A DNA stretch of 64,000 bases, from positions 2,330,001 through 2,394,000 of the forward strand of contig NZ_CP041636.1 of the NCBI RefSeq assembly GCF_007197755.1, in the 5' to 3' direction. Both the position numbers and the translations under genes were made by a program. The notes below the pieces were generated by a model, which was not told where the DNA came from, searched no databases, and saw nothing but the letters and a program-made list of their open reading frames with translations. Source of the stretch: Ferrovibrio terrae (GTDB lineage Bacteria > Pseudomonadota > Alphaproteobacteria > Ferrovibrionales > Ferrovibrionaceae). Below are positions 32,775-35,134 of the stretch, one piece after another; the stretch's first letter is position 1, and each line of letters opens with the position of its first letter.

Positions 32775-33184
32775 AAGCCGGCACCAGCTGGGCTGACAAG
32801 CTGCGTGACGGCAAGCAGCATCAGGTGAAGGTCGTGCCGATCAATATCGCCGGCATGAAGAAGGGCCAGATGATGCTGGTGCCCTCGGCGCGGATCGTGG
32901 ACGCTTTCATCCGCCGCCTGCCGGAGGGGCGGCTGCTGGATACGCGGGAATTGCGGGCGCGGCTGGCGCGCAAATACCACACCGAGGTGACCTGCCCGAT
33001 CACCATGGGTTTCATCCTGCGCATCGTGGCCGAAGCCGCCTGGGAAGCGCGGCAGGCTGGCGCCGCAAAGGGCGATATCACGCCGGTCTGGCGCGTGCTG
33101 GACGAAGACAGTCTGACGCTGAAGAAACTGCCGAAAGCCGCGGCGGCGTTCTTCCACACGCGAAGGGCGGAAGAGGCGGCATAA
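32771..33184 (+). CDS. Atl1/MGMT-like DNA-binding-fold protein lacking the acceptor cysteine motif
   Basis: 137 aa. The stretch MLVPSARIVDAFIRRLPEG, then TRELRARLARKY and CPITMGFILRIVAEAA resembles alkyltransferase-like/MGMT-family small proteins; the PCHR acceptor motif of true O6-methylguanine methyltransferases is absent. Such proteins may flag alkylated bases for excision repair, but I infer this only from fold-level resemblance. It is coupled to the amidase by ATGA, which is unusual for a repair protein. The window's Ada fragment is 32 kb away. Confidence 0.65.
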   Translation: MKAGTSWADKLRDGKQHQVKVVPINIAGMKKGQMMLVPSARIVDAFIRRLPEGRLLDTRELRARLARKYHTEVTCPITMGFILRIVAEAAWEARQAGAAKGDITPVWRVLDEDSLTLKKLPKAAAAFFHTRRAEEAA

Positions 33185-33193
33185 AAATTCCGG

Positions 33194-33222
33194 TTGACCG
33201 ATGGACGATCTGCCCTTACCGT
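33194..33222 (+). promoter_or_regulatory. Predicted promoter of the threonyl-tRNA synthetase attenuator
   Basis: TTGACC (33194-33199), 17-bp spacer, TACCGT (33217-33222). The expected start is only a few bases before the leader peptide ATG at 33233, so the transcript would be nearly leaderless, as with trpL in Sinorhizobium. Confidence 0.55.
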
Positions 33223-33232
33223 CCGCGTCACC

Positions 33233-33307
33233 ATGCAGAGCATTATTCTCACCGTAGCTACCATTAAGGTTACCGCCGTCGGCGGTGCCCTGGGTCGTTG
33301 CGCGTGA
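33233..33307 (+). CDS. Attenuator leader peptide (24 aa) upstream of the truncated ThrRS gene
   Basis: A 24-codon frame, ATG at 33233 and TGA at 33305-33307. Regulatory-type codons are packed into codons 4-16: Thr ACC at 7, 10 and 14; Ile ATT at 4, 5 and 11; Val at 8, 13 and 16; Leu CTC at 6. ATT and GTA are uncommon choices in the surrounding GC-rich genes. The C-terminal part (GGALGRCA) is encoded by the segments that form the alternative hairpins. There is no Shine-Dalgarno, consistent with leaderless initiation. Stalling at Thr codons would couple Thr-tRNA charging to expression of the synthetase. Confidence 0.7.
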   Translation: MQSIILTVATIKVTAVGGALGRCA

Positions 33308-33370
33308 TCGGATAAACGCAAAGCAGAACACCCAGAGGCCCCGCCGGCGACGGACGGGGCCTTGGTGTTT
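33272..33370 (+). promoter_or_regulatory. Mutually exclusive hairpins and terminator of a ribosome-mediated attenuator
   Basis: Hairpin 1:2 is ACCGCC-GTC-GGCGGT (33272-33286). The antiterminator pairs CTGGGT (33290-33295) with ACCCAG (33330-33335) and extends to GCC (33287-33289) with GGC (33337-33339) around a bulged A. The terminator pairs AGGCCCCG (33336-33343) with CGGGGCCT (33355-33362) and AACACC (33327-33332) with GGTGTT (33364-33369), ending in TTT. The antiterminator uses bases of the terminator's left arm, so only one can form. The U-run is short, the weakest point. Confidence 0.65.
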
Positions 33371-33416
33371 CCGGGGCTTCGTTCATCGCCGGTCGCTTCG
33401 CAGACCGGAGAGCGAC

Positions 33417-34649
33417 ATGAACAGTTTCAGTCCCAGATTCAACATGGATACGGATGTTTACGACCATCGCGTGCTGGGCACGCGGCTGGATCTCTTCCAC
33501 CAGCAGGAGGAAGGGCCGGGCATGGTCTTCTGGCATCCGCGCGGCTTTGCACTGTACCGCGTGATCGAGGATTACGTGCGCCGTCGCATGCGCGAGGTCG
33601 GCTTCGCGGAAATCCGCACGCCGCAGCTGCTGTCCTACAGCCTGTGGGAACAGAGCGGCCATGCCGACAAGTTCGCCAACGAGATGTACCGGCTCGACAG
33701 CCGCTCGTCGGGCGGCAACCGCAGCTTTGCGCTCAAGCCGATGAGCTGCCCCTGCCATGTGCAGGTCTATTCGAAGTCGCTGCGCTCGGTGCATGACCTG
33801 CCGCTGCGCTACTGCGAATTCGGTGCCTGCCATCGCGACGAACCTTCGGGCGCGCTGCAGGGCCTGATGCGTACCAAGAGCTTCACGCAGGATGATGCGC
33901 ACATCTTCTGCACGGAGGCCCAGGTCGAAGGAGAGGTGCAGCGCTTCTGTGAGCTGCTGCGCAGCATCTACAGCGATTTCGGCTTCGGCGCACCGCTGGT
34001 GTTCTTCTCCACGCGGCCGGCGAAGCGCGCTGGCGACGATGCGACCTGGGATCGCGCGGAGGCGGCGCTGGCGATGGCGGCGCGCCGCGCCGGGATCGAT
34101 TTCGGCATCAAGAGCGGCGATGGTGCCTTCTACGGCCCGAAGCTGGAATTCCATCTGCGCGACAGCCATGGCCGGGCCTGGCAATGCGGCACGATTCAGC
34201 TGGATTTCGTGCTGCCCGAACGGCTGGGCGCCGATTACGTGGCCAGCGACGGCAGCCGCCAGCGGCCGGTGATGATCCATCATGCCGTGCTGGGCAGCAT
34301 GGAGCGCTTCATCGGCATGCTGCTGGAGCATCACAAGGGCCAGCTGCCGCTCTGGCTGGCACCGGAACAGATCACGGTGGCGAGCGTGACCAGCGCGCAG
34401 GAGGCCTATGCCCGCAAGGCGGCGGCCGCGTTGGGCCGTGAAGGCTACCGCGTTGCCGTCGACGGCCGGCCCGAGCGGATCGGTCGCAAGATCGCCGAGG
34501 CGCATGAACAGGGCCTGCCGCTGCTGGGGATTGCCGGCGAGCGCGAGATGGAGCGCGGCACGCTCACCTTCCGCCGCCGCGATGGCCGGCAGGAGGAGCT
34601 GACGCTGGCCGATGCGGCGCGGCGCTACCGCGAGGAGGCGTTTCGGTGA
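33417..34649 (+). CDS. Threonyl-tRNA synthetase lacking TGS and editing domains
   Basis: A 410-aa class II synthetase matching only the catalytic and anticodon-binding parts of the roughly 640-aa bacterial ThrRS; the N-terminal TGS and proofreading domains are absent. The catalytic zinc ligands are conserved: C111 (KPMSCPCH), H162 (TQDDAHIF) and H288 (VMIHHAVLGSMERF). Motif 2 reads CHRDEPSGAL. It should charge tRNA-Thr but not clear Ser-tRNA-Thr itself. It is probably an inducible second copy, since a full-length thrS would be expected elsewhere. The ATG follows GGAG (33407-33410). An attenuator precedes it and a kinase gene is coupled downstream by GTGA. Confidence 0.88.
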   Translation: MNSFSPRFNMDTDVYDHRVLGTRLDLFHQQEEGPGMVFWHPRGFALYRVIEDYVRRRMREVGFAEIRTPQLLSYSLWEQSGHADKFANEMYRLDSRSSGGNRSFALKPMSCPCHVQVYSKSLRSVHDLPLRYCEFGACHRDEPSGALQGLMRTKSFTQDDAHIFCTEAQVEGEVQRFCELLRSIYSDFGFGAPLVFFSTRPAKRAGDDATWDRAEAALAMAARRAGIDFGIKSGDGAFYGPKLEFHLRDSHGRAWQCGTIQLDFVLPERLGADYVASDGSRQRPVMIHHAVLGSMERFIGMLLEHHKGQLPLWLAPEQITVASVTSAQEAYARKAAAALGREGYRVAVDGRPERIGRKIAEAHEQGLPLLGIAGEREMERGTLTFRRRDGRQEELTLADAARRYREEAFR

Positions 34650-35134
34650 TCGAGCCGACCCTTCATCTCGTCTGCGGCAAGATCGCGGCCGGCAAATCCA
34701 CGCTCTCAGCCGAGCTGGGTGCCGCGCCGGGTACCGTCACGCTCGCCGAGGATGCCTGGCTGGCGCAGCTCTATCCCGGCGAGATCCTGACCGTGGCGGA
34801 TTATGTGCGCTGTGCTGCCCGGCTGCGCGAGGCCGTCACGCCGCATGTCGAAAGCCTGCTGCGGGCCGGCCTGTCGGTGGTGCTGGATTTTCCGGCCAAT
34901 ACGCGGGCCAATCGCGCCTGGATGCGCGGCATCATCGACCGGACCGGGGCGAAACACCGGCTCTACTGGCTCGACGTCCCCGACGAGGTCTGCCGCGCGC
35001 GCCTGCGACAACGCAATGCGGCCGGTATGCATGACTTCGCCGCCAGCGATGCCGAATACGATGCGATCACCGCGTATTTCACGGCGCCGCAGGTCGATGA
35101 GAACTTCGAGGTTGTGCATCGCCGCATGGCATGA
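34646..35134 (+). CDS. P-loop kinase (AAA_33/zeta-like predicted kinase)
   Basis: A 162-aa protein with Walker A GKIAAGKST (11-19), an acidic DVP strand (YWLDVPDEV) and a lid-like RARLRQRN. It resembles small predicted kinases of the AAA_33/COG0645 group, which include antibiotic and nucleoside phosphotransferases. The GTG start overlaps the synthetase stop (GTGA), so it is under the same attenuator. Substrate unknown; linkage to tRNA charging or to resistance against a ThrRS inhibitor are both possible inferences. Confidence 0.8.
   Translation: MIEPTLHLVCGKIAAGKSTLSAELGAAPGTVTLAEDAWLAQLYPGEILTVADYVRCAARLREAVTPHVESLLRAGLSVVLDFPANTRANRAWMRGIIDRTGAKHRLYWLDVPDEVCRARLRQRNAAGMHDFAASDAEYDAITAYFTAPQVDENFEVVHRRMA

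Follow-up and report, generated by a model that had tools for sequence, protein, structure and literature searches.

In the thr leader of E. coli, as in the trp, his, ilv and pheST attenuators, an open reading frame (ORF) with regulatory codons is combined with three alternative hairpins (1:2, 2:3 and 3:4) and a terminator. In Bacillus, the gene thrZ is induced by threonine starvation. According to the accessible text of two papers, thrZ is a second threonyl-tRNA synthetase (ThrRS) located behind T-boxes (PMC3997798, PMC2494555). An alphaproteobacterial attenuator has been described for trpL-trpE of S. meliloti; in the excerpts available of that study, the leader ORF is leaderless and carries Trp codons, the gene behind it is trpE, and the terminated RNA and the peptide also act in trans (PMC7298713).

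The locus described here lies in a window of 64,000 nucleotides from the genome of Ferrovibrio terrae (a single contig of 4.26 Mb). Like the E. coli thr, trp, his, ilv and pheST systems, it presents a leader with regulatory codons, three hairpins and a terminator before a gene for the same amino acid. Unlike the E. coli thr operon, it would control a synthetase paralogue rather than thrABC, and the expected transcript start coincides with the start of its leader or is only a few bases away from it. It resembles S. meliloti trpL-trpE in being an alphaproteobacterial attenuator candidate, and Bacillus thrZ, as far as the excerpts go, in that a second ThrRS is preceded by an RNA leader that contains a terminator; however, the thrZ T-box reads the tRNA directly, whereas the leader in the window would use the translating ribosome. 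In addition, it differs from the known attenuators in that no Rfam family matches it at the gathering score. While the mechanism is a known one, no description of a threonine attenuator ahead of a ThrRS gene was found in the literature searched, in which the most relevant comparative studies were not covered. We interpret the locus, with a probability of about 0.85, as a transcription attenuator that acts through the ribosome and controls a proofreading-less ThrRS induced by starvation.

The leader region and the genes behind it

The features of the region, all on the plus strand, are as follows.

33194..33222, +, sigma-70-like promoter TTGACC-N17-TACCGT, recognized by eye, with the -35 box kept in relatives
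33233..33307, +, leader ORF MQSIILTVATIKVTAVGGALGRCA-stop, 24 codons, from direct reading and relatives
33251..33366, +, match to leader model R1 (E 2e-23, 99.9 bits), a self-match, with G000 among the 12 rows of the model
33272..33286, +, hairpin 1:2, ACCGCC-GTC-GGCGGT, its 5' arm beginning at the last Thr codon
33280..33346, +, antiterminator 2:3, GGCGG (segment 2) with CCGCC (segment 3) and CTGGGT with ACCCAG
33336..33370, +, terminator 3:4, AGGCCCCGCCG...CGGACGGGGCCT plus weak T-tract TTGGTGTTT, from folding and covariation
33417..34649, +, second threonyl-tRNA synthetase, 410 aa (TIGR00418), catalytic and anticodon-binding domains only
34646..35134, +, gene for a small kinase-like P-loop protein (AAA_33), overlapping the end of the ThrRS gene

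On direct reading, the -35 box TTGACC (33194-33199) is separated by a 17-nt spacer from the -10 box TACCGT (33217-33222). The promoter assigned in the sequence-only reading, an earlier inspection of the same DNA, holds in part: the sequence is present and a -35-like box recurs in 23/23 loci, but the -10 box is weak and a consensus promoter scan gave no site at its threshold in the leader region. More precisely, TTGAC (TTTAC in G369) is found 35-39 nt ahead of the leader ATG in all 23 short-ThrRS loci examined below, so that no more than a few bases, if any, probably separate the transcript start from the leader, much as in the leaderless trpL of S. meliloti.

The leader ATG (33233) lies 10 nt past the -10 box and the TGA stop is at 33305-33307, in agreement with the earlier claim of a 24-codon leader close to the expected transcript start. 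Codons 4-14 comprise three Ile, three Thr, two Val and one Leu; the ACC codons 7, 10 and 14 are the proposed control codons, and ATT is found at codons 4, 5 and 11, exactly the three threonine and three isoleucine codons that had been noticed before. In the key 8-codon stretch, Thr accounts for 3/8 residues and Ile is equally frequent.

The three hairpins compete for the same bases. The GGCGG at 33281-33285 serves as 3' arm in 1:2 and as 5' arm in 2:3, while CCGCC belongs to the 3' arm of 2:3 and also lies inside the 5' arm of 3:4 (33336-33362); their arms therefore overlap as an attenuator needs, and the three hairpins of the sequence-only reading are confirmed. Compared with shuffled sequences, the fold has a z-score of -4.87 for the leader RNA (33226-33420), -5.33 for the antiterminator region (33276-33350) and -5.30 for the terminator region (33325-33375). 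The 1:2 region by itself reaches a z of only -1.72 (13/200 shuffles were equally good), and the antiterminator has an energy of -35.4 kcal/mol with a z of -4.14 against shuffles keeping the core and arm. The assignment of 3:4 as a terminator stands as to its stem, which folds and covaries, but less so as to its T-tract: TTGGTGTTT is poor, and a scan demanding at least 5 T in 8 accepted no plus-strand terminator here. A looser scan (4 T in 8) did accept it and was the one used for the comparison of loci. An additional weak hairpin (33254-33273, GTAGCT...GGTTAC) appears upstream of 1:2 in the centroid fold, and two bases that are changed in G008 could, by eye, still pair.

The gene at 33417-34649 is a predicted threonyl-tRNA synthetase, scoring 450.9 bits against TIGR00418 (threonine--tRNA ligase; cut-off 383.65). 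It lacks the TGS and tRNA_SAD (editing) domains, which were found in none of P0001, L113 and L117. Both domains are present in a full-length ThrRS (L001) encoded elsewhere in the same genome, so the earlier description of the gene as a second ThrRS is correct. Its nearest sequences in the PDB are ThrRS chains, several of about 400-410 residues, which we take to be truncated, editing-less constructs. The kinase-like gene is perhaps co-transcribed with the ThrRS gene. As a co-regulated partner of the switch in general, as had been supposed, it was rejected: it adjoins the short ThrRS in only 3/23 loci, all in the clade of the window, and was not found beside the ThrRS of the nearest relatives, G001 and G002.

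Conservation of the leader and of its competing structures

The protein and alignments of short-form sequences served as queries in the search for short-ThrRS genes. The search gave 24 genes, 23 of which have upstream DNA (G000, G001, G002, G003, G005, G006, G008, G009, G011, G054, G183, G246, G278, G279, G307, G350, G354, G369, G416, G431, G450, G477 and G479); G471 was left out, as its contig begins inside the gene. The ThrRS gene of G416 looks frameshifted, and was counted among the leaders and left out of the trees. A scan of genome contigs gave mainly full-length ThrRS, which were used as controls, and seven candidates for short ThrRS (L098, L202, L211, L213, L224, L238 and L284) were rejected as contig-end starts or pieces of full-length ThrRS. 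The short ThrRS is patchily distributed, occurring in at least 13/385 genomes in an even draw from the class and, in searches of single orders, in 3/17, 2/23, 3/43, 2/10, 4/10 and 1/4.

The scan of the upstream regions asked for an ORF of 12-40 codons that starts with ATG and contains 3 or more Thr in 8 codons, and for a terminator no more than 110 nt away. At each locus the ORF with most Thr was taken, and the shuffles were allowed the same choice. A Thr leader with terminator was found in 23/23 short-ThrRS loci versus 0/920 shuffles; the leader frame and its Thr codons are thus conserved in relatives, as the sequence-only reading anticipated. At least 4 Thr in 8 codons are present in 18/23 loci (0/920 shuffles), and the loci below this mark are the clade of the window (G000, G001, G002, G005 and G008). 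In 14/23 loci the leader contains 4-7 consecutive Thr codons, e.g. MHRVAHLCTTTTTTTRFGG and MKRLNASCTTTTTTTAMGG. The codons used for Thr differ across leaders (ACC, ACG, ACT and, once, ACA), but the residue is kept.

Covariation was examined in 27 ThrRS leaders aligned by model R1. In these, 99.0% of the cells of the terminator stem are paired (0/500 shuffles as high), and 3 of its 11 pairs are changed on both sides (7/500 shuffles as high), while 7 are invariant; it should be noted that these counts lean towards the R1 stem, because the alignment was fitted to it, and that the p-values take no account of the relatedness of the leaders. The changes are visible by eye, the arms GGCCCC/GGGGCC becoming GACCCC/GGGGTC in G455 and AGCCCC/GGGGCT in G011 and G354. 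The covarying stem expected from the earlier inspection is therefore present.

All three hairpins fold in 25/26 leaders, with the control codons at segment 1. The 25 are those of the window, of 22 further short-ThrRS loci and of two full-length thrS; the 26th, G452, lacks the search word, and only its 2:3 was folded. The leader of G416 has GCGGG instead of GGCGG, and hairpin 1:2 shows two registers in the leader alignment. Beyond its core, the antiterminator has a mean z of -2.05 over the 26 leaders, with z below -1 in 21/26 and between -3.9 and -5.2 in 4/5 leaders of the clade of the window. In the remaining five leaders, which are G+C-rich, the stem beyond the core is no better than chance (G307 +0.97, G451 -0.26, G450 -0.37, G452 -0.81, G431 -0.88).

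Proposed mode of action and the amino acid probably read

The transcript would begin with the leader ATG or a few bases ahead of it, and a ribosome would start on the leader at once. With well-charged Thr-tRNA, it would reach the stop past segment 2 and cover this segment, so that the 3:4 terminator could form and the transcript would end near 33370. When Thr-tRNA is scarce, the ribosome would stall on the Thr codons at the foot of 1:2 and mask segment 1; segments 2 and 3 would then pair, no terminator would form, and the second ThrRS would be made. If the leader were not translated at all, 1:2 and 3:4 would both form and transcription would stop. The output would be a spare ThrRS without a proofreading domain of its own, induced by threonine starvation or by failure of the main ThrRS. 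Such an attenuator had been proposed in the sequence-only reading, and the leader in 23/23 loci, the covariation of the terminator and the -35-like box all argue for it.

Which amino acid is sensed deserves a separate discussion, as the earlier inspection had left room for a broader branched-chain signal. In codons 5-17 of the 27 ThrRS leaders, Thr accounts for 137/351 residues. The five genomes of the window's clade are atypical (MQSIILTVATIKVTAVGG), with Thr diluted by Ile, Val and Leu and with a poor T-tract. The leader in the window might accordingly be a sensor of several amino acids (Ile, Val, Leu and Thr), reporting a branched-chain or aspartate-family signal and not Thr alone; we regard this as possible, but doubtful. 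The mixed composition of codons 4-14 is in its favour, as is the metabolic fact that isoleucine is made from threonine. Moreover, codons 1-17 are nearly fixed in the five genomes: no synonymous change separates the window from G001, G002, G005 or G008 (14-16 comparable codons each), while from residue 105 of the ThrRS gene onwards 19-30% of comparable codons differ in the same four comparisons. The codons so preserved include uncommon ones (GTA 1.6%, GCT 9%, GTT 12% and ATT 26% of their families, among 2802 codons). Something beyond the Thr codons therefore seems to be selected, and the clade may be under such an added constraint. On the other hand, the other 18 protein-found loci have at least 4 Thr in 8 codons, and in the window itself the codon at the foot of 1:2 is Thr14, where the Thr run of the relatives ends or nearly ends. 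Since the codon repeated outside the clade is that for Thr, comparison of the leaders identifies Thr as the shared signal and Ile, Val and Leu as a feature of the five-genome clade.

The remaining alternatives to attenuation by a translating ribosome are much less likely. Control at the level of translation, in which ThrRS synthesis would be gated by the leader or by another hairpin close to the ribosome site (33389-33408, CCGGTC...GACCGG), appears improbable: this hairpin is part of the minimum-energy fold and is preserved in sequence in G001 and G002, but by eye it is changed in G005 and G008, and 3:4 ends about 45 nt ahead of the ribosome site. Even less probable is that 3:4 is an ordinary intrinsic terminator of the upstream gene, accompanied by a chance ORF, with the ThrRS promoter located further down. 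An ORF on the same strand as the leader does end at 33184; however, the sequence farther upstream differs among loci while the -35 box, the leader and the terminator stay, and a leader found in 23/23 loci against 0/920 shuffles is not what a chance ORF would give. Finally, a T-box or another leader binding tRNA or a metabolite was rejected as extremely unlikely, although bacillar thrZ genes lie behind T-boxes (PMC2494555, accessible portion), because a scan of the whole window against Rfam 15 (T-box and threonine leader included) gave 0 families at the gathering score and because what is conserved is a reading frame, in which the codons for Thr change while the residue is kept.

Related leaders and the history of switch and enzyme

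A similar attenuator precedes four full-length thrS, namely those of G451, G452 and G455, which belong to one genus, and that of G068 (L324); the scanned loci of G456, G457 and G458, from the same genus as the first three, gave no leader match. A Thr leader as a shared trait of thrS at large was rejected, as the strict scan, which demanded a terminator, matched only 3 (L016, L216 and L087) of the 173 distinct full-length loci that have 250 nt or more of upstream DNA. Two of these three have at least 4 Thr, and L016 looks spurious. When the terminator was not demanded, 10/189 full-length loci matched, among which L215 and L218 look real besides L216. The full-length thrS of the window's own genome (L001) gave no leader match in the scans. 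In Vogesella alkaliphila, a betaproteobacterium, a full-length thrS follows the leader MFKRTTTTRISR and a strong terminator (L087:3115-3153), just after a tRNA-like sequence. As in the window, a Thr leader and a terminator stand before a ThrRS gene, but the gene is full-length and the leader and terminator sequences are different, so that this is apparently an independent case.

Model R1 was built from 12 leaders, 11 of short ThrRS and 1 of full-length thrS. It matched in 96/385 genomes at E <= 0.01, many of the matches being weak; strong matches were also found in genomes without a listed short ThrRS. Of 37 matches inspected, 16 lie before asd, 1 before a full-length thrS and 20 before neither, and some of the latter (L337, L341, L342) look like plain terminators. 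With one more found from the asd side, 17 asd leaders were hand-picked from the match lists (L300, L301, L304, L307, L308, L312, L315, L316, L321-L323, L325, L328, L329, L333, L340 and L361), all with Lys, mostly with Thr, and with a like terminator; examples are MMRFATKTTTTKTTTFGG and MSKRTQTTTTMTKKTTLRGG. The asd identity is given by NCBIfam for 4 and by tblastn for 17/17 (45.7-100% identity, the query being among them).

The Asd enzyme feeds the synthesis of lysine, threonine and methionine. Lys is present in codons 5-17 of 17/17 asd leaders versus 9/27 ThrRS leaders (nominal Fisher p 5e-6, the leaders being related to each other), with 42 Lys residues (19%) in the asd pool versus 10/351 in the ThrRS pool, while at least 3 Thr are found in 15/17 and 27/27, respectively. 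This contrast emerged unplanned and was not built in, because R1 was made from Lys-poor leaders. Lys in the asd leaders, and its absence from most ThrRS leaders, fits amino-acid sensing, and the combination of Thr and Lys in the asd leaders suggests that the aspartate family has a small regulon of attenuators. Among the asd genes sought in 13 genomes, such a leader was found before 2/6 second copies (G246 and G431) and before 1/13 first copies (G054, a longer and doubtful ORF). The scan found no such leader before the second copies of G011, G279, G350 and G369, nor before the asd of the window's own genome (L347). A resembling leader-like small ORF, SEP5 of S. meliloti, was shown by Ribo-seq and Western blot to be translated; in the accessible part of the report, it has six codons for Thr and three for Lys, precedes a gene named 'aspartate dehydrogenase' and not a synthetase gene, and is called conserved only in Sinorhizobium (PMC10117765). 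We infer that the gene in question is asd.

Several other R1 matches were observed. Those before dapA-like genes in G077 and G111 (L331, which passes TIGR00674, and L332, judged by eye) have no clear Lys run. In G073, three leaders (L309, L326 and L327) have no Thr run but share THSGGPSE, THTGGPSE or a looser form of it, and the gene behind L309 looks by eye like an acetyltransferase. Outside the class, L368, L370, L376 and L379 (G792, G762, G592 and G653) are Thr-rich leaders like MNLIQQHLTRTTTTTAPGG with a terminator, followed by what looks by eye like an isochorismatase-type hydrolase gene (LLIIDMQTGL...), to our knowledge not a threonine gene. Six genomes of one family (G375, G785, G809, G618, G827 and G576; L306 and L371-L375) share a conserved leader-like peptide that ends in MTRFGWAVGGVVR or in a closely similar sequence; the terminator is the same, and a Thr run is lacking.

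The short ThrRS forms a single clade, with support of 100 in a tree with 22 short rows and of 100/100 in one with 28, so switch and enzyme have stayed together. When a draw from the phylum was searched with R1 (matches in 34/398 genomes at E <= 1e-4), further short-ThrRS loci turned up in another class (G704, G772 and G774, the last with nine consecutive Thr codons in its leader) and in an alphaproteobacterial family (G657, G673 and G743); since R1 itself led to these six, they do not count as independent evidence that the leader is conserved. In the tree with 28 short rows, the rows from the other class nest among the alphaproteobacterial short rows, with modest branch support (83/75), which suggests that enzyme and switch were transferred together between classes.

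The switch in this window was left unmarked by the Rfam scan. It makes a clean example, open to testing, of amino-acid attenuation acting on a synthetase paralogue where no T-box is involved, and it poses a puzzle, as a ThrRS without proofreading would be switched on just when threonine is short. From the single clade, the patchy spread and the three nested members of the other class, one may speculate, with considerable reserve, that attenuator and editing-less ThrRS form a travelling module, a conditional, error-tolerant synthetase within a wider regulon that would sense Thr ahead of ThrRS and, ahead of asd, both Thr and Lys. Such a module might be switched on only when Thr-tRNA is exhausted or the main ThrRS blocked, and then sustain translation; conceivably, it could serve to bypass ThrRS-inhibiting antibiotics, or allow serine to be accepted in place of threonine.
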